This document shows, one piece after another, positions 3,385 through 45,928 of a stretch of 64,000 nt of DNA (position 1 is its first letter; every line of letters starts with the position of its first letter). The position numbers and the translations under genes were made by a program. The notes beneath the pieces are model-generated. The model saw only the letters and a program-made list of their open reading frames with translations, had not been told where the DNA came from and ran no database searches. The DNA lies in the IMG/VR virus record IMGVR_UViG_3300036670_000209, positions 1 through 64,000 of that record, one strand, 5' to 3'. Origin of the DNA: a virus.

Positions 3385-3674
3385 TATAGAGTTTTACCCA
3401 CTGTTTCCAGGATGGTATTCAGCTCGTCGTGGTCTCGATTGGTTTCACCCAGTTTGGCCTTCTGTGCAATTTTAACTGCACGCTTGAGCAAGGCTGGTTT
3501 AATTTCCAACTCTTCTGCGATGCTTTTGATTGTATCATTGAGCCCTGCGCTGAGGTCTTCAATCTCCCTGAGCACTCGATTGCTATCATTGAACAATTGC
3601 ATCAATTTAATTTTAGCAGCACCGTTGAATGTGCGATTTGCACCTGGGTCATTAGGGGTTTCCTGATCTGTCAT
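3384..3674 (-). CDS. DsbA-like small DNA-binding protein (tentative)
   Basis: 96 residues, charged and mostly helical. The central part, with a loop of the form LNDTIKSIAEEL followed by a short Lys-rich helix region and an acidic tail, resembles the layout of the T4 DsbA family (about 89 residues), a double-strand DNA binder that stimulates late transcription. The match is by pattern only, without a catalytic motif to confirm it. A sigma70-like promoter lies just upstream at 3699-3727. Confidence 0.45.
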   Translation of the reverse strand: MTDQETPNDPGANRTFNGAAKIKLMQLFNDSNRVLREIEDLSAGLNDTIKSIAEELEIKPALLKRAVKIAQKAKLGETNRDHDELNTILETVGKTL

Positions 3675-3698
3675 ATTAGCTCCTGTGTGTAGTAGTAT

Positions 3699-3727
3699 AT
3701 TATAACAGATATCCGTCAGCGGTGCAA
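3699..3727 (-). promoter_or_regulatory. Sigma70-like promoter upstream of DsbA-like gene
   Basis: On the minus strand TTGCAC, a 17-base spacer and a perfect TATAAT. It lies 25 bases upstream of the 96-residue gene. One of few sigma70-type promoters in the left, otherwise late-type, part. Confidence 0.6.
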
Positions 3728-3797
3728 GAGCAATGAGCAGATGTACGAAAAATAGTGCTCACTTTTAAGATTCCAGGATTCCCGGCCCGGCCGTCTC

Positions 3798-3814
3798 GGG
3801 GCAGCAGCCGCCCC
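3798..3814. other. GC-rich stem-loop in intergenic region
   Basis: GGGGC and GCCCC arms around a seven-base loop, inside a very GC-rich patch (3781-3816) in the 199-base gap between 3674 and 3874. No T-run follows on either strand, so it is not a classical terminator. It could be an RNA structure or processing site. Confidence 0.35.
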
Positions 3815-3861
3815 ACACAAGTAACCACGAAGGTACTAAGGTAGTGTGTTGGTTAATATAA

Positions 3862-3869
3862 TATTTATG
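3862..3869 (-). promoter_or_regulatory. T4-type late promoter octamer
   Basis: Minus strand reads CATAAATA, one mismatch from the T4 late consensus TATAAATA. It lies about 190 bases upstream of the DsbA-like gene. Confidence 0.45.
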
Positions 3870-3873
3870 ATAC

Positions 3874-3975
3874 TCACCCTGGGCTGTATGGATTCTTGGG
3901 AGTATCGTATCCATCAGGTTCAGGGTACACTGGGTATTGATTTCCTGGGATGGGTTCTGGTGTGGTCTCGCTCAT
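3874..3975 (-). CDS. 33-residue proline-rich peptide
   Basis: Starts MSETTPEPIPGNQYPVYPEP and is rich in Pro and Tyr. It has a strong ribosome site (CAGGAG, seven bases before ATG) and a late-type octamer 20 bases upstream at 3995-4002, the spacing seen for other late genes here. Both signals make a real small late gene likely despite its size. Function unknown; possibly a small virion or tail-fibre-associated peptide. Confidence 0.6.
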   Translation of the reverse strand: MSETTPEPIPGNQYPVYPEPDGYDTPKNPYSPG

Positions 3976-3993
3976 GGTATACTCCTGGTCAGA

Positions 3994-4410
3994 TTATTTA
4001 TCAAAGTCGCTGGGGGCGCTCTGTGCATATAGTCGCATGATCACCCCGGCCTGTGCGTTGGCCTGATTTTCCTCGTCACTGCCAGTTTCGCCACTATCCT
4101 GGTCCAGCTGGTTATTCTCTCGCTGGGACCAGTGTACCAGCTCATGTGCCAGAGTGCGCAGTATATCCACTGGATGCCGGTCTGCCACGGCCACTGATAT
4201 GGCCTGCTGCTGGTCATCGTAGCAACCAAATGATGGTTGACTTCCATGATCATTGGGCATGCGCAAAACTGGCCGGATTTTGGGTATGCTGGTCAGTTGC
4301 AATTCACCAATCGCTATGGGTAGCATGTGCTTGATGGCGCTGAGCACACTGGTCAGGTGCTGTTCATGCTCAGTGGTCACCGATTCGCGTATGATCTCAC
4401 TGGATTTCAT
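3994..4410 (-). CDS. Putative zinc metallopeptidase (HELVH), SprT-like layout
   Basis: 138 residues. A clear HExxH motif (LAHELVHWSQ) near residue 90 suggests a zinc peptidase fold; the following ETGSDEENQANAQAG block, rich in Glu, may give the third zinc ligand. The N-terminus MKSSEIIRES is typical of small virion-block proteins of T4-like aquatic phages. It overlaps the upstream gene by 4 bases (ATGA). A processing or virion-associated peptidase is plausible; no substrate can be inferred. Confidence 0.75.
   Translation of the reverse strand: MKSSEIIRESVTTEHEQHLTSVLSAIKHMLPIAIGELQLTSIPKIRPVLRMPNDHGSQPSFGCYDDQQQAISVAVADRHPVDILRTLAHELVHWSQRENNQLDQDSGETGSDEENQANAQAGVIMRLYAQSAPSDFDK
3995..4002 (-). 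promoter_or_regulatory. T4-type late promoter octamer
   Basis: GATAAATA on the minus strand, overlapping the last codons of the metallopeptidase gene and 20 bases upstream of the 33-residue gene at 3975. Confidence 0.55.
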
Positions 4411-24707: not shown

Positions 24708-25685
24708 CTAGGTCAACATCTGAATGGAATCAATAAACCGGGGAATATAGTTACGAGCATCAATTCCCTTTAGTTTATCTTGTTTACGTAGTTCAGCGAT
24801 ACATTGATCAGCCAATGGATGCCCTGCCAGCACATCAGGGTGGAAGTATTCGGGATAATAAACCACATTGTGGTTAAACTGTAGATGGTTATCATTAAAC
24901 CATTCAATGGTTTCTTTGTGATATAAGACATTTAGATTGCTAATAGTATAGCTAACGCTTAACTGTATTCCCAAACTCCTATAGAGTACTATATTGTCAA
25001 GTAGTACATTCCATTTAAGTGGATATCGTAGGTATTCAAAGACTGATCCCACTCCATCAATACTTAAACAGAAATTTAAGTTTTTAAACTTGGATAGAAT
25101 ATCAATTTGACGTTGATTTATTTTAGTGGATCCATTTGTGACCATGGATATAAAACAGTCGGTATTGTCTGCATGAATCAATTGCTCCAATATTTCAAAG
25201 TTAAGCTTTTCGTAAAGTGGTTCACCACCAACAAAAGTTAGCATTTTAATTTGAGTCAAATCCATGCCAGACAGCGTATGGTCTGGAATCTTCTTTATCT
25301 CAATATGTTTACCATCTAGTGCCGCCCATGCCGAACTAGCAGTTGCATTACACGTAACACAGGTTGAATTACATATGTTACTGGTGTATAATTTAACTAT
25401 TTGTTGAGAATATAAACCTTTTGCACAATCTTTTTTTACAAACTTGATGTCACGATCAGCATAAAAATCATAGGCCTGATTCTTAAGTTGCCTATCGCTT
25501 TCCAATCCTAGATCTTCATTGGCCCAACACTTGTTGCATTCCCTGGGGCGAACATCATTAATAAAGTCTTCACGTATTTGCTCCATGGATCTATCGCTGG
25601 GAGCCATCAAACAACACGGTGTGTCAAACCCAGATTTGTTATATTCAGCACCAAAGAATGGCATCACGCAAAAGTTTTTATCCAT
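24708..25685 (-). CDS. Twitch-type radical SAM protein
   Basis: 325 residues. A C-x3-C-x2-C cluster (SNICNSTCVTCNA) near 105-115 binds the 4Fe-4S-SAM cofactor, GGEP near 155 follows it, and further Cys (CCLMAP near 25, ECNKCW near 50) resemble twitch/auxiliary cluster regions. Reaction unknown; could modify a peptide or sugar. AT-richer than neighbours and no clear ribosome site. Flanked by direct repeats (24590, 25790). Confidence 0.85.
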   Translation of the reverse strand: MDKNFCVMPFFGAEYNKSGFDTPCCLMAPSDRSMEQIREDFINDVRPRECNKCWANEDLGLESDRQLKNQAYDFYADRDIKFVKKDCAKGLYSQQIVKLYTSNICNSTCVTCNATASSAWAALDGKHIEIKKIPDHTLSGMDLTQIKMLTFVGGEPLYEKLNFEILEQLIHADNTDCFISMVTNGSTKINQRQIDILSKFKNLNFCLSIDGVGSVFEYLRYPLKWNVLLDNIVLYRSLGIQLSVSYTISNLNVLYHKETIEWFNDNHLQFNHNVVYYPEYFHPDVLAGHPLADQCIAELRKQDKLKGIDARNYIPRFIDSIQMLT

Positions 25686-30256: not shown

Positions 30257-30444
30257 CATGTATGCCACTGACCCCGGTCAGTGGGAAACCTGGGCGGACT
30301 GTGCAGTATCTTTTGATTGTGGGCATTTACCACGCAGCCCAACATTTCCACTATGTCGTGTCCACCACCGGTTCGGCGCACCAGGATAGGATAGGTTAAA
30401 TTATCCTGATACGTCGCTGCTAACTGAACTTTATTCACACACAT
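30253..30444 (-). CDS. Small hypothetical protein downstream of NAMPT
   Basis: 63 residues from ATG 30444, which overlaps the NAMPT stop by 14 bases (start codon embedded in GTGTGTGAATAA). Basic; contains RRTGGGHDIVEMLG. No function seen. Confidence 0.6.
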   Translation of the reverse strand: MCVNKVQLAATYQDNLTYPILVRRTGGGHDIVEMLGCVVNAHNQKILHSPPRFPTDRGQWHTC

Positions 30445-31840
30445 TTTTCCGAACCTGTGCAAATGTCATGTCGCGTATCAGCTCACCATTGCGGTACACT
30501 TCCTCCAATGCGCTGGGCATCCAGTCTTCGCGACCACTGAAATATTCACCACGCATGTCACGCATGAGTACCACTCGCCCACGCTTGCTCTGTTTGCCAG
30601 AATCAGTGATTGGGTCCTTGTACACATCCTGCCATTCAAGAGTGGTACCGTTAACCGTGCCACCCCCTTGCTGGGCAGGAATCCTGATTCCAATGGATGA
30701 TGCTTTCATGGCAAACTGCAGAGTGTCACGATTTACCTGTTGCAGCAGAGCACCGCCCTGACCAAACGCAATATTATCTGCACTGAATCCAGCCATTTCC
30801 ATGCAAAATAATATGCTGCGAATGCTGGCATGATTAATACCATCACCCTGCAACACCCGCACCTGGTTCAGCACTCGATAGCCCTTGGCGTTTTTCACAG
30901 AACCAAAGTGTTTTTCCAGTATGTACAAACATTTGACCACCACTTCGCTGGGTTCACCGCTGTCCGGGCGAATTACCACTGTGGCACCACTGTCCAACAC
31001 CTGTTGCTTGAGATCGGTGCCCCATAACCTGCAAGCCTCATAGATGTCATAACTGTCACTCACACAGGCCACCAGTGCCCCTGGTTTGGCATACTGGTTC
31101 AACATGTTGCGATAAGCATCGACCTCATGATCACGACCCCAGCTGGTTACTGTGCTGTGTTCCATTGCAGGTATGCTAAAGCCGGCCACACCAGCAGCAT
31201 AGTACTCACGAGCATACAGCAGGCCAGTAATATTATCCGTGCCCATAAAGTTAACCAGGTGTGCTGCGCCACCGATACCACTACTTTCCATACTAGACAC
31301 GCCACGAGCGCCGAAATCATGCAGTTTGAAATCAATAGTAGATGGATCACCTGTTTTCTCCAATGCGTTGAGTATGAGTTTCCTGGATTCGCGACTGTTG
31401 GTAGCCACTGTGGTGGGATACCAGATGGCACGGAGTATGGCAGTTTCCAGGAAGGATGTGAGCCAGTAACATGCAGGGTCAGTGTTTTCAATGGTTGCCA
31501 GCACATTGCGGGTGGGAATAATGCATCCTTCTGGTGCTGCACGAATCACTACTGGCAGGCGGCCGCCATGTGTATTCAGAATATATTCCCAGCCCACGCG
31601 ATTGAATGGTTCGCCATGAGCAGTGATGATTTCAGCAGCCTGGTCAATGTCCTGCTGTGTGATGGGAGTGCACAGGTATTCCTTGATGAATGCTTGCAGG
31701 CCAAAAAACACAGTGCTGTCCCATTCGCCACCGCGTGCCTCCACATAGGAATACACATATTCAGTGCCTGGGGGATATTGATTGAATTGACTGTATTTGT
31801 AGGAGTCAGAGTTCAGTATGATGTTGTGTGATAGTTTCAT
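30431..31840 (-). CDS. nadV: Nicotinamide phosphoribosyltransferase (NAMPT/NadV)
   Basis: 469 residues from ATG 31840, which has an AAGGA ribosome site. It makes NMN from nicotinamide and PRPP. Seen: SDSYKYSQFNQYPPGTE at the N-terminus, DFGARGVSSMESSGIGGAAHL with the catalytic-site region near 175, VIRPDSGEP near 285 (PRPP-binding Asp), GQGGALLQQVNRD near 375. Full length for the family (about 490). Pairs with the NMN adenylyltransferase at 44912. Own strong promoter at 31898-31925. Confidence 0.97.
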   Translation of the reverse strand: MKLSHNIILNSDSYKYSQFNQYPPGTEYVYSYVEARGGEWDSTVFFGLQAFIKEYLCTPITQQDIDQAAEIITAHGEPFNRVGWEYILNTHGGRLPVVIRAAPEGCIIPTRNVLATIENTDPACYWLTSFLETAILRAIWYPTTVATNSRESRKLILNALEKTGDPSTIDFKLHDFGARGVSSMESSGIGGAAHLVNFMGTDNITGLLYAREYYAAGVAGFSIPAMEHSTVTSWGRDHEVDAYRNMLNQYAKPGALVACVSDSYDIYEACRLWGTDLKQQVLDSGATVVIRPDSGEPSEVVVKCLYILEKHFGSVKNAKGYRVLNQVRVLQGDGINHASIRSILFCMEMAGFSADNIAFGQGGALLQQVNRDTLQFAMKASSIGIRIPAQQGGGTVNGTTLEWQDVYKDPITDSGKQSKRGRVVLMRDMRGEYFSGREDWMPSALEEVYRNGELIRDMTFAQVRKNVCE

Positions 31841-31897
31841 TTTAAAAGTTCCTTTTAATTTTGGTATGCCGGACGTCTTTCGTCTGGTCTTGCTGCT

Positions 31898-31925
31898 AGT
31901 ATAACATATCACTAAAAAATGTCAA
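31898..31925 (-). promoter_or_regulatory. Sigma70 promoter for NAMPT
   Basis: Perfect TTGACA, 16-base spacer, TATACT on the minus strand. Leader of about 50 bases contains a short GACG-AAAGA-CGTC inverted repeat. Confidence 0.75.
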
Positions 31926-34625: not shown

Positions 34626-34784
34626 CTAACAGGAATCATCACAGGGCGCGTCGCCACATTCGTCACATAAAACTGGTGACCAGTGACAGCCATGTTGAGC
34701 CACGCCACAAACCGTAGGCTCCCCGCAGGTACCGCATTCACCATCTACCTCAACATCTGGACTGGTCCAACCTTCAGAGCACAT
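34626..34784 (-). CDS. 52-residue Cys-rich zinc protein
   Basis: Starts MCSEGWTSPDVEVDGECGTC; pairs CGTCG, CDECG and a C-terminal CDDSC suggest two zinc sites. The Met at 34784 has a GGAAT ribosome-like site (weak). Resembles a known T4-like phage small zinc protein. It fills the gap left between the two neighbours. Confidence 0.65.
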   Translation of the reverse strand: MCSEGWTSPDVEVDGECGTCGEPTVCGVAQHGCHWSPVLCDECGDAPCDDSC

Positions 34785-35443: not shown

Positions 35444-35800
35444 TTAAGGTATTTTTATATCTTTGCATCCTACACAATCTTTACAACCTATGCAATCTTC
35501 ACAATCTTCACAATATTTACAATCTTTGCAACCTATGCAATCTCTGCAAGCTTTGCAATCTTCACAATCTTCACAATCTTCACAAACTTTGCAAACTTTG
35601 CAACCTATGCAATCTTTGCAACCTTTGCAACCTATGCAATCTCTGCAACCTATGCAACCTATGCAATCTTTGCAACTTACGCAACCAACGCATTTAAAGT
35701 TATTACTCTCGTCCATCTTTAAAGCTTGCTGATCAGCGGCTTCCTGCGATATATTAGACTTACCTGTATTGCCGTTATTTGTTTTTTCGCTTGTAAACAT
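35444..35800 (-). CDS. Cys-x-x repeat protein, copy 1
   Basis: 118 residues. After an N-terminal polar leader (QEAADQQALKMD) come 26 triplets of the form C-x-x (CIGCKDCKYC...), one Cys every third residue. The regular 3-residue period could form a solenoid or a metal/disulfide-rich rod; nothing similar is known to me with an assigned role. The DNA has a 9-base period. Ribosome site AGGAAAA before ATG. First of three tandem paralogues. Confidence 0.7.
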   Translation of the reverse strand: MFTSEKTNNGNTGKSNISQEAADQQALKMDESNNFKCVGCVSCKDCIGCIGCRDCIGCKGCKDCIGCKVCKVCEDCEDCEDCKACRDCIGCKDCKYCEDCEDCIGCKDCVGCKDIKIP

Positions 35801-35803
35801 TGT

Positions 35804-36151
35804 TTATTTTCCTGTTTGACTATCTAAATCTTTGCAACCTATGTGACCCACACAACGCACACAACCTATGCAATCTTTGCAACCTTTGCAACCTATGCAA
35901 TGTTCACAAGCTTTACAATCTACGCAATATGTGCAATCTACACAATATGCGCAATCTGTGCAATCTACGCAATCTACGCAATATGTGCAATCTACGCAAT
36001 CGTTACAGTCTATGCAACCTTTGCAATCGTTGCAACCAACGCAGTTAAAATTCCCACCCTCATCCATTTTTGAAGCCTGTATATCAGCAGCTTCTTGAGA
36101 CATATTAGACTTACCTACATTTCCGTTCTTTGTTTTTTCGCTGATAAACAT
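35804..36151 (-). CDS. Cys-x-x repeat protein, copy 2
   Basis: 115 residues. Same leader as copy 1 (QEAADIQASKMD), then 24 triplets, 23 with Cys and one with His. The same triplet rule, but with different filler residues, shows independent divergence of repeats. Ribosome site AGGGAAA before ATG. Confidence 0.7.
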   Translation of the reverse strand: MFISEKTKNGNVGKSNMSQEAADIQASKMDEGGNFNCVGCNDCKGCIDCNDCVDCTYCVDCVDCTDCAYCVDCTYCVDCKACEHCIGCKGCKDCIGCVRCVGHIGCKDLDSQTGK

Positions 36152-36154
36152 TGT

Positions 36155-36511
36155 TTATTTCCCTGAGCAACTTATGCGACCTGTACAATCTGCACAATCA
36201 GCGCAACCTATGCAATTTATACAATCTTTACAATCTCTGCAACCTGTACATTCAGCGCAGGTTTTGCAACCTGTGCAATCACCAGAGCTTGAACAATATT
36301 TACAACCTGTGCAAAACCTACACTCAATACAATCCTCGCAATCAGTGCAATTTATACAAGCAGAGCAGGTTTTGCAGTTAATACAGTTAATGCAATCTAT
36401 ACAATTTGTGTTGCCCCCGGAATCCATTAAGTTGGCTCTTGCGTCCGCATCCTTTTGAGTAAACTTGGAAGTTGCTACATTACCATTGGCTGTCATTGTG
36501 CTGATAAACAT
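36155..36511 (-). CDS. Cys-x-x repeat protein, copy 3
   Basis: 118 residues. Leader is more different (KFTQKDADARANL) but the Cys-triplet part again has 25 Cys in 27 triplets, with SSSGD interrupting. Its stop overlaps the RNA ligase stop/start region by one base (start 36511). Unknown function. Confidence 0.7.
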   Translation of the reverse strand: MFISTMTANGNVATSKFTQKDADARANLMDSGGNTNCIDCINCINCKTCSACINCTDCEDCIECRFCTGCKYCSSSGDCTGCKTCAECTGCRDCKDCINCIGCADCADCTGRISCSGK

Positions 36512-37524
36512 TATTGTGCCCTGAGTAGAAATTTATTGGATATAACCTTGAAGGACACTGCCAGTTGATTGCACTTGTACACCAGCCCCTCCTGCCAGGG
36601 AGCCGGTGTCACTGGCATGCTACTGCGGGAGTCAGCGGCCAGTAACAGTTGGTCCATGGACTCAGTGAGAACTGCGGCTGAGGCAATCACTGGCACATGA
36701 GGCCAGCCCATGTGAGTTACCAGTTGTGTTCGTTGATCAGGAGTCAGATATTCCCCAGCATCTATATCAAAGATATCAAAAATCATGAATGTCTGGCCCC
36801 GCCGGGCATAACGATTGTCCTGGATGTCATTACCAATCAATTCTCCCTGCAAGGCCAGGTTTCTGCCCAGCTGCTCCAGCCCTGATTTCAAATATAATTC
36901 TCCAGCCACACGCCACGGGGTGTTTCCTGGACGGTCAGCCAGTTGCCAGTTGCGGCTGCACACACCAAATAGTCCCTGATTCCAAAACACTGTCATGGAA
37001 CTGCCATCCAACTTCTCAGTGACTTCCCAGGTCAGTGACTGGGTAGTCCACTGTGCTAGTTCCAGGGTCAGGTTCTGTATGCGTTCCTGATCAGTTTTGG
37101 GAATAAAGCCCGGCAATGCGCCTGTGACCTCACCAGCGATACAGGCAGGAATGGGTGCCTCATATTTGAGTATGTTCAGGGATTCTGATACATCATCCCC
37201 CAGCTGGGAATCACCGGGAGCAGTGCATACGGTGATGGGCAGCAGCAGACCCTGGCTCAGCTGGCCCCTGAGTCGAACGGTGCGTAGTCGCTCACCCAGC
37301 ACCTGCTCAAATGTGCGTGGGGCATTTCCACGGCTGAGAAAGGGTGCCAGCTCATGTGGAATCCAGCTGTCAGGTTCTGCATACACCACCAGATCACCCA
37401 GCAGATACTTGTTCACCTGATCCACCACCCACCAGCCGTCCACACGATATGCACAAATCAGGTCAGCGCCAATAATGGGTCGTATCTCAGCAATTTTGCG
37501 TATGGTGGCCATTTTGCGTGTCAT
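36511..37524 (-). CDS. RNA ligase, DRB0094/Rnl5-like
   Basis: 337 residues from ATG 37524, which has an AGGAA ribosome site. N-terminal OB-like domain (about 1-150), then the nucleotidyltransferase with motif I TEKLDGSSMTV (Lys of K-L-D-G as adenylated lysine, near 190), GVCSRNWQLADR, YARRGQTFMIFDIFDI (near 268), and VYKCNQLAVSFKVIS. Seals nicked RNA 5'-phosphate/3'-OH ends, possibly repairing host-damaged tRNA. Family lengths agree (about 340). Confidence 0.9.
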   Translation of the reverse strand: MTRKMATIRKIAEIRPIIGADLICAYRVDGWWVVDQVNKYLLGDLVVYAEPDSWIPHELAPFLSRGNAPRTFEQVLGERLRTVRLRGQLSQGLLLPITVCTAPGDSQLGDDVSESLNILKYEAPIPACIAGEVTGALPGFIPKTDQERIQNLTLELAQWTTQSLTWEVTEKLDGSSMTVFWNQGLFGVCSRNWQLADRPGNTPWRVAGELYLKSGLEQLGRNLALQGELIGNDIQDNRYARRGQTFMIFDIFDIDAGEYLTPDQRTQLVTHMGWPHVPVIASAAVLTESMDQLLLAADSRSSMPVTPAPWQEGLVYKCNQLAVSFKVISNKFLLRAQ

Positions 37525-37542
37525 TTGGATTCCTGGTGTACT

Positions 37543-37572
37543 AATATAGTGTATTGAATGCAAGGGCGTCAA
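37543..37572 (-). promoter_or_regulatory. Sigma70 promoter for RNA ligase
   Basis: TTGACG, 18 bases, TATATT on the minus strand, 19 bases before the ATG at 37524. Confidence 0.6.
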
Positions 37573-37577
37573 CGTGG

Positions 37578-37784
37578 TCAAGCAATGACATCCAGGTCAA
37601 AATAGTCAGCCATTCTCTGAGCCAGTTGATGACCAGAGCCCTGATCGTCCTGCACAAATTGCATGCATTGCTGTACCACAAGTTGTGTGAACAGAGTCTG
37701 ATCCACGGTTACATGGGTGCCCAATCCACTGATCCAGGATCTACTGGTGGCTTGCTCAGTGAGCATAGAAATATTTGCGTTCAT
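37578..37784 (-). CDS. Small hypothetical protein, LIVxEC-like
   Basis: 68 residues, with QLVVQQCMQFVQDDQ near 35 standing where FAELIVEEC stands in the small early family. Starts MNANISMLTEQATSR. Possibly a diverged member. Sigma70 promoter just upstream. Confidence 0.6.
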   Translation of the reverse strand: MNANISMLTEQATSRSWISGLGTHVTVDQTLFTQLVVQQCMQFVQDDQGSGHQLAQRMADYFDLDVIA

Positions 37785-38184: not shown

Positions 38185-38394
38185 TTATTTCCCCCAGTGT
38201 GCCCATTTGAGTAAAAATACCATGTGATCAATTTCATGGGCGAATCTAATTTCATATGCCTGCTTGGGCCACCAACGGTCCATTGCAGGTGGCCCGTACT
38301 GCTGTTCACACCAGGAAATCAAATCTGCCCAGGGTGCTGTGGTTACTGCCCTGCCACTGATATCACGAGTGCGTACATGCACACGATATTTCAC
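38185..38394 (-). CDS. Small hypothetical protein
   Basis: 69 residues, basic, Trp-rich C-terminus (MDRWWPKQAYEIRFAHEIDH). Overlaps the macro-domain gene by 4 bases, so co-translated with it. Unknown. Confidence 0.6.
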   Translation of the reverse strand: MKYRVHVRTRDISGRAVTTAPWADLISWCEQQYGPPAMDRWWPKQAYEIRFAHEIDHMVFLLKWAHWGK

Positions 38395-38894
38395 ATGAAT
38401 TCCACCAGTGTGACCGTGCCGCCAGTGGCACTCATGCGTTGGGCAAAGTTATCCAGCATGGATGTGATTAGTGCAGGATCACCTCCGGCCAGACCCATGC
38501 CAATGTACGGAAATCCAATTCGTTTATCACCATAGGCATGCAGCAGTTTTTGTAGGATCAGTTCAAATGCCACATACTCAAACACATCAGTGCCCTGGCT
38601 CATATGGTATTGAGTATAAGCATTGATGATGATAAAATTATCTTGGTTATCCTGCTGGGGTGTGTTAAACCAGGCATATCCCAGAGTCCAATTGCCCAAC
38701 TTGGCATAGTCACCCCTGGCAGTCATAGCATCAGCCTGTGCTACTTCTGGGTAGCGCGTTCGAATTTCTCGCGCTATACCGCCACCCATGGTATTAAAGC
38801 AATTACATCCTTGTACTATCAGATCAAAGTTCCCCTGTTGGGCCAGATCTAATAAATTACCCTGTGCATGTTGTAGCTTGCTATTTGTTGACAT
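38391..38894 (-). CDS. Macro-domain protein, Poa1p/ADP-ribose-phosphatase-like
   Basis: 167 residues. Macro-fold motifs IVQGCNCFNTMGGGIAREI near 26-45 and FPYIGMGLAGGD near 123, loops that bind ADP-ribose. Similar to Appr-1"-p phosphatases of yeast Poa1p type. It may remove or sense ADP-ribose derivatives produced by NAD-consuming defence. Lies with the NAD genes and overlaps its downstream gene. A TTGACG-TACAAT promoter (38928) lies upstream. Confidence 0.9.
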   Translation of the reverse strand: MSTNSKLQHAQGNLLDLAQQGNFDLIVQGCNCFNTMGGGIAREIRTRYPEVAQADAMTARGDYAKLGNWTLGYAWFNTPQQDNQDNFIIINAYTQYHMSQGTDVFEYVAFELILQKLLHAYGDKRIGFPYIGMGLAGGDPALITSMLDNFAQRMSATGGTVTLVEFM

Positions 38895-44911: not shown

Positions 44912-45928
44912 TTAGAAACCAACCAGGTCCTGAATAATTTCATAGTGATCTTCAAAGCACTCGGCACTGTTTATTTCTGCAAAAGGTACCCAACGTGCTC
45001 GTGTGGCATCATCTGAACCTTTTACACGTGGTAAATCACCATCAGGCAACCGAATCAGTTGCACATGGGTGATGATTCTACCACGCGCACTGCGATCTAT
45101 TGCATCATATACCCGGCTGCGTACAATGCTACCACGTAACACTGGTTCAGGTACCCTGATCAGGGTTTCTTCTCTGAGTTCTCGGATAGCTGCATCCACT
45201 ACGGTGTTGTCAGTCTGTGCATTAATGTATCCGCCAGGCAGCGCCCATAACCCACGGCCCGGCTCAGCGCGTCGTTTGATCATGAGCACATGTCCGCTGC
45301 ACACCACCACTGCATCAGCAGTGCTGAATATAGGAGGATACCTGAGCCCAGCATATTGCCGATTATGATCCACGATAAATTCACGCTCCCTGATCACCTG
45401 AGAGTAGTCATCAGTGCGGGCAAAATTCTCCAACCAGTCATGCACTGGCAAGGGTACCACTCCTTTGATGAAATTATAGTTCACCTGGCGTTTGAAATAC
45501 AGGTCCCTGATGTCCACTGCGCTCAGTGGCTGTATACTTTCCACATTCTCGTATGCCCACTGTGGAAACATATCCAGATAAAAGGAACTTTCATCTTTTT
45601 TATGCCCAATCATGCCCACACGGGCACCGGAATGCGCATGTGCGGCCACCAGCTGTTGTACCCTGGTGGCCCAGGCCTGGTTATTGTACAGGCTGTCAGT
45701 GGTGGATTCCACGGAAATATTCAAGCTCAATCCGCCAGTGGCCAGGCGTATCATGTGCGCACGTTCTACAAAAGTAAATGGATTCTTGAATGTTCGGGGA
45801 AGATTTGCACTACCCACCACAATCACCAGTTTGTCACACATGGCGGTTGCTCGCTTGATGATCTCCAGGTGAGCATTGTGCAGTGGTTGGAATCTGCCAA
45901 TAAAAACCAAAACGTCATATTTGTTCAT
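44912..45928 (-). CDS. nadM: Bifunctional NMN adenylyltransferase / Nudix hydrolase
   Basis: 338 residues. N-terminal half: FIGRFQPLHNAHLEI (nucleotidyltransferase GxFxPxHxxH) makes NAD from NMN and ATP. C-terminal half: Nudix domain near 200-330, box GGYINAQTDNTVVDAAI then RELREETLI. Two box positions deviate: the first Glu is Asn and the late Gly is Leu, so ADP-ribose pyrophosphatase activity may be reduced. With NAMPT at 30431 it completes nicotinamide-to-NAD. It starts beside the next small gene with a 4-base overlap. Confidence 0.95.
   Translation of the reverse strand: MNKYDVLVFIGRFQPLHNAHLEIIKRATAMCDKLVIVVGSANLPRTFKNPFTFVERAHMIRLATGGLSLNISVESTTDSLYNNQAWATRVQQLVAAHAHSGARVGMIGHKKDESSFYLDMFPQWAYENVESIQPLSAVDIRDLYFKRQVNYNFIKGVVPLPVHDWLENFARTDDYSQVIREREFIVDHNRQYAGLRYPPIFSTADAVVVCSGHVLMIKRRAEPGRGLWALPGGYINAQTDNTVVDAAIRELREETLIRVPEPVLRGSIVRSRVYDAIDRSARGRIITHVQLIRLPDGDLPRVKGSDDATRARWVPFAEINSAECFEDHYEIIQDLVGF

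Follow-up and report, generated by a model that had tools for sequence, protein, structure and literature searches.

Three tandem genes on the minus strand of a 64-kb stretch of viral DNA (hereafter the window, positions 1 to 64,000 of a virus record of 103,039 bases) encode proteins in which cysteine recurs at every third residue and which, judging by sequence, are members of a large, widespread and undescribed phage family with hundreds of members. The window proteins are most likely very thin coiled rods with all cysteines stacked inside, and we consider a thin tripeptide beta-solenoid with inward-pointing cysteines probable because of the ladder of beta bridges predicted by AlphaFold2 (AF2), a sequence match to a Tenebrio antifreeze protein that exceeds shuffled controls, and a C-terminal domain that also occurs behind known beta-solenoids. 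The more inclusive statement, that these are tandem paralogues of a phage 'tripeptide-repeat' beta-solenoid family with a Cys-specific core and a host-directed role, is in our estimate evenly balanced between true and false.

The three window genes (Table 1) are the sole family copies in the 103-kb record. Their spacers measure 3 bases and the junctions are nearly identical (GGGAAATAAACAATG / GGAAAATAAACAATG); copies A and B share ~60-64% overall identity, copy C is more distant, and the three appear to be tandem duplicates that are translationally coupled as one set. All cysteines within each copy fall in a single phase of three, with Cys-to-Cys gaps of 25x3 in copy A, 21x3 plus 1x6 in copy B, and 22x3 plus 2x6 in copy C, and the longest unbroken C-x-x runs (26, 22 and 13 triplets, respectively) exceed the maximum of 8-9 obtained by shuffling (0 of 20,000 shuffles per protein). 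The original prediction had described three tandem proteins made almost wholly of C-x-x triplets after a shared leader. Tandem arrangement, Cys counts and register all stand, but the array accounts for only about two thirds of each protein, the remainder being a 36-residue leader and, in the window copies, nothing more than a short tail after the array; the shared leader is borne out both by alignment of the copies and by a leader HMM that finds all three genes.

Table 1. Coordinates of the Cys-repeat genes, their parts and the adjoining gene in the window
Feature	Position	Strand	Description	Evidence
Copy A	35444..35800	-	118 aa, 26 Cys, triplet run unbroken	phrog_15341, E 2e-12
Copy A leader	35693..35800	-	residues 1-36	AF2 pLDDT 87-90 over residues 1-30
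Copy A C-x-x tripeptide array	35465..35692	-	residues 37-112	sequence
Copy B	35804..36151	-	115 aa, 23 Cys, 1 in-register skip close to C-terminus	phrog_15341, E 4e-10
Copy B leader	36044..36151	-	residues 1-36, predicted fold as copy A	AF2 pLDDT 86-87 over residues 1-30
Copy B C-x-x tripeptide array	35834..36043	-	residues 37-106	sequence
Copy C	36155..36511	-	118 aa, 25 Cys, 2 in-register skips (CSSSGDC, CTGRISC)	phrog_15341, E 4e-11
Copy C leader	36404..36511	-	residues 1-36; motif GN....S...S/TQ..AD.....MD common to copies	alignment
Copy C C-x-x tripeptide array	36167..36403	-	residues 37-115	sequence
TAATG	36509..36513	-	RNA ligase stop overlapping copy C start	
RNA ligase	36511..37581	-	upstream neighbour of copy C	PF09414 E 6e-26, phrog_968

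The three copies match PHROG 15341 (function unknown), as do distant relatives, down to E 4e-27. That they belong to a large phage family had not been recognized in the original prediction. This cluster includes 'cysteine rich' hypothetical proteins of the Campylobacter phages CP220, CPt10, F379 and IBB_35, which have the same leader and repeat as the window proteins and differ from them by sequence divergence only; the libraries and papers searched describe neither a structure nor a function for the family. The window proteins match no family in Pfam or NCBIfam, a defence-system library contains no match for the three, and targeted literature searches found no paper on such repeats. The CPt10 annotation records weak insect-antifreeze (PF02420) and TNFR matches, and that of F379 reads 'cysteine rich'. 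Both a tblastn search with copy A against phage records and a leader-plus-repeat query against phages and plasmids returned no match. Low-complexity filtering is the probable cause, as the family is present in phages that were searched; it has been overlooked partly through such masking in protein searches.

Relatives came instead from IMG/VR and bacterial genomes, searched with DNA patterns and with profiles. Scans with the bare TGY-N6 pattern yielded many off-frame, antisense or low-complexity sequences, and counts were therefore restricted to leader-positive open reading frames (ORFs). The leader HMM retrieves 179 ORFs including the window genes, of which viral sets supply 166 and contigs of bacterial genomes 13. 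The collection comprises 156 unique leader-bearing members, nearly all phage or apparent prophage; phage-type genes close to the bacterial-contig members examined encode a CI-like repressor (Phyllobacterium), ParB (Kaistia) and a phage-type methylase (Thalassobius). One C-terminal subtype by itself accounts for 224 IMG/VR stretches, and in the Firehammervirus group each Campylobacter phage has two family loci. Elsewhere, a single phage contig (L316, IMGVR_UViG_3300028572_000010) holds eight Cys-repeat ORFs within 8.8 kb, all with a DRxLEIEL-type short tail, as in a local gene-family expansion, and Flavobacterium phage FL-1 (L135) encodes a Cys-repeat protein at ~3473-4301 that its deposited annotation misses, with a WHTC C-terminal domain that is frame-shifted in the deposited sequence. 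In addition, the BFVD model A0A5B8IEK9 (ChoanoV1 mimivirus, 'TNFR-Cys') matches the predicted model by fold at E 4e-6, from which the Cys repeat may be present outside phages too.

Among the 156 unique members, 4,177 of 4,229 register slots (98.8%) are Cys, so that relaxed Cys loss in relatives was looked for and not found; the exceptions are 43 replacements that keep the register (25 Ser, 8 Leu, 4 Phe, 6 others) and 9 register breaks. Position x1 of the C-x1-x2 triplet is mainly S, T, R, I, K or V and x2 mainly D, N, G, R or Y, with T very rare at x2. A selection test compared eight orthologues from Campylobacter phages that do not differ in length. In these, 13 of the 26 Cys codons vary, all by TGT<->TGC exchange only (13 synonymous, 0 non-synonymous changes), whereas the 56 filler codons include 7 with silent variation and 11 with a changed residue (Fisher p=0.0004). 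With no non-synonymous change at Cys codons against 11 in the fillers, the thiol itself is therefore under selection, in agreement with the original prediction of selection on the Cys ladder. This result, obtained from relatives, bears on the Cys reading and not on the Leu- and Gln-rich antisense ORFs of the plus strand, which are inevitable from a 9-base repeat.

Array length, on the other hand, is free to change. Arrays range from 6 to 76 triplets (median 25), and the relatives L137 and L138 carry ~9 vs ~55 triplets, though their C-terminal domains are both ~80% identical to that of L007. The other Campylobacter locus codes for a protein of 123 to at least 285 residues, or else stops break it up: located between portal and DNA ligase genes (L163, L164, L162, L160), its array varies widely in length among phages and is interrupted by stops in CPt10 and CJLB-12, and in CP21 a second Cys-array gene adjoins it. 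The net charge of the repeat averages -5 per 100 residues and is negative in 80% of members, too mild to decide on a DNA-mimic idea.

Structure prediction of the repeat was carried out with AF2 on copy B (19 sequences; pLDDT 71, pTM 0.54) and copy A (61 sequences; pLDDT 64, pTM 0.51). Despite the different alignments, both runs put the residue that follows Cys, and so every third residue, into a beta bridge along the whole array, and both build a confident leader of short beta elements followed by a helix at residues 19-31 that runs into the first Cys. The regular ladder thus emerges twice, but confidence within the repeat reaches only 50-75 pLDDT, and repeat sequences can push AF2 towards regular ladders. 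Foldseek recovers family members in BFVD with high probability; there is no significant fold match among solved structures (best E 1.2), and the Tenebrio antifreeze protein 1l1i appears only at E 8.1 and 4.3 with these low-to-moderate-confidence models. The bridge pattern is ambiguous as to coil length, and autocorrelation of the fillers reveals no coil period.

Searching the PDB with a sequence profile, in turn, gives the Tenebrio antifreeze protein 1ezg as top match (E 3e-6). The real score of 27.1 compares with 13.4 +/- 3.2 when cysteines are fixed and fillers permuted (maximum 25.3 of 1,000) and with an average of -12.5 after full shuffling. The fillers therefore agree beyond composition in favoring T/S directly behind Cys and D/N/G ahead of the following inner residue, even if the match is helped by a common Cys-rich composition. 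The Tenebrio coil reads out-in-out-out-in, with inner residues C2, S5, C8 and A11 (PMC8038014). The beetle protein (Tenebrio molitor, PF02420) and the phage family are alike in having an inner residue every third position, a Cys-rich core, many tandem repeats and the above filler preferences; they differ in that half of the inner positions are Cys in the 12-residue antifreeze coil (TCTxSxNCxxAx) whereas every inner position is Cys in the phage family, and in that the former is a secreted insect protein with a TCT ice-binding face and the latter have neither a TCT face nor a visible export signal. Neither a significant fold match nor a Pfam match connects the two; the antifreeze likeness is one of analogy rather than membership.

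The C-terminal domains found in other family members provide a third line of evidence. A small domain of the type GSRN...CGCF...EFE sits after the Cys array in seven relatives (L007, L053, L119, L136-L139), and in other phages the same domain follows, by Pfam assignment, a YdcK beta-solenoid (Ruminococcus phage phiRM10 and Bacteroides phage BF766P1), hexapeptide repeats (Chryseobacterium phage MA9V-1) or pentapeptide repeats (Listeria phages). One domain behind both Cys arrays and known beta-solenoids therefore implies that the Cys array occupies a beta-solenoid's place. The pentapeptide-repeat (PF00805) and the YdcK/hexapeptide left-handed beta-helices (PF18836, PF00132) of phages further resemble the Cys arrays in being built of short tandem repeats of variable number, but the Cys array unit is three residues long and Cys-only, and has no Pfam profile or sequence match to the PF00805 or LbH families. 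A different C-terminal domain, WHTC...HCRAGW, occurs with Cys arrays only (76 of 76 proteins having a complete N-terminus). Taken with the AF2 ladder and the antifreeze match, the domain swap makes the solenoid, which the original prediction had put forward as a possibility, the best-supported architecture.

We therefore favor a model in which each C-x1-x2 triplet would supply a single side of a thin beta-helix: Cys would face inward, x1 (S/T/I/V/R/K) would take part in the bridge and x2 (D/N/G) would occupy the corner, while the leader would serve as N-terminal cap. The nearest precedent would be the 12-residue Tenebrio coil, here with all four inner positions taken by Cys. So thin a core may need Cys-specific chemistry, metal-thiolate or disulfide, to hold it together: the near-absolute Cys requirement argues for such chemistry. 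A core of reduced, packed thiols would be a third candidate; a plain packing role would not obviously require 98.8% Cys. The outward fillers could constitute a fast-changing binding surface whose length shifts by whole triplets, and indeed the freely varying outer residues and array length suggest a binding surface under changing pressure.

The same Cys content could be read in terms of metal binding. At 22% Cys (26 of 118 residues in copy A) and with the CxxC spacing usual for metal ligands, the proteins might be metallothionein-like sponges, flexible chains that have no regular fold and bind Zn, Cu(I) or Fe-S clusters through their many CxxC pairs; Cys-specific selection would also be expected of them. 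We consider this unlikely, because metallothioneins accept altered spacing and also contain CxC and CC, whereas here the spacing is 3 in almost all cases and the single register is rigid; because lost cysteines are replaced in register, in some cases by Leu or Phe, neither of which can bind metal; and because the leader is predicted to be structured and C-terminal domains are shared with beta-solenoids. Metal could also be combined with the solenoid, the inward cysteines of each coil holding Zn, Cu(I) or Fe-S as a one-dimensional metal-thiolate wire within a tube of protein, with the triplet number determining how long the tube is; this is an improbable variant, and our analysis found no described counterpart of such a phage metal or redox rod. 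Alternatively, cysteines pairing within each coil could lock the solenoid by disulfides formed on oxidation, perhaps post-lysis, as in the disulfide-filled beta-helix that is the nearest solved sequence match. Such a protein would be a sub-case of the beta-solenoid reading, not another fold, and we regard it as doubtful given that the proteins have no hydrophobic export leader and the cytoplasm of many hosts is reducing.

Two further explanations concern the repeat rather than its chemistry. Strong variation in repeat number among relatives, with the L137/L138 pair and the stop-broken Campylobacter locus as extreme cases, is what neutral expansion of a 9-bp tandem repeat in phage DNA, with no selected protein function, would produce, yet the codon contrast described above contradicts it: the fillers have diverged while Cys was kept, and leader and C-terminal domains are conserved across very different phages, leaving it very improbable. 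Ice binding in the manner of beetle antifreeze proteins would fit the shared inner-every-third-residue register, the similar fillers and the weak PF02420 matches noted by the CPt10 annotators. It is nonetheless hardly credible, with no Pfam PF02420 match at E<=1, no repeated TCT face (x2 being mainly D/N/G) and members found in phages of Campylobacter and gut bacteria.

The genomic neighborhoods suggest an early, intracellular, DNA-metabolism setting for the family. Recurring same-strand neighbors encode helicases, ParB-methylases, RecE-like exonucleases, DnaB, primase and DNA ligase; family neighborhoods indicate no virion role, and no single function stands out. A cytoplasmic location of the window proteins would likewise follow from the absence of any hydrophobic leader. 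Some pentapeptide-repeat solenoids, such as Qnr and MfpA, are known as inhibitors or decoys, and by analogy we tentatively guess that the Cys-repeat proteins may act early in infection as intracellular inhibitors or decoys of a host protein or nucleic-acid enzyme. The RNA ligase was rejected as a system partner, none of 80 relatives having a Cys-repeat neighbor.

The DNA polymerase of the window phage is nearest to those of the jumbo phages Phosso (48%) and Atu_ph07 (44%), in neither of which was a family member found. Other minus-strand genes of the window include a possible phage NAD salvage pair, with a nicotinamide phosphoribosyltransferase encoded at 30431-31912 (phrog_448, E 2e-149) and an NMN adenylyltransferase/NUDIX-type cytidyltransferase family protein at 44912-45928 (phrog_395, E 1e-76). 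The Macro-domain-like phosphatase at 38391-38894 (phrog_335), which weakly matches a DarG antitoxin model (E 3e-6), is a possible ADP-ribose eraser beside the Cys-repeat operon. A 52-aa protein with several Cys pairs (MCSEGW...CGTCGEPTVC...CDECGDAPC; phrog_13157), encoded at 34626-34784, resembles a small zinc-ribbon. A Radical SAM domain protein (phrog_14086) is encoded at 24708-25685, and radical SAM genes are also close to both Campylobacter phage relatives.

Members of the family occur in Campylobacter and Flavobacterium phages and, among Alphaproteobacteria and Firmicutes, in regions resembling prophages. That three different solenoids precede the same accessory domain suggests that they are interchangeable in phages and do one job. 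If the proposed architecture is true, the Cys repeat would represent the smallest-unit beta-solenoid, with three residues per side and a core made entirely of Cys; it would be a scaffold from nature on which thiols or metals could line up as a regular ladder, and would allow a clear test of the way in which phage proteins of the cytosol hold 20-70 thiols in line.
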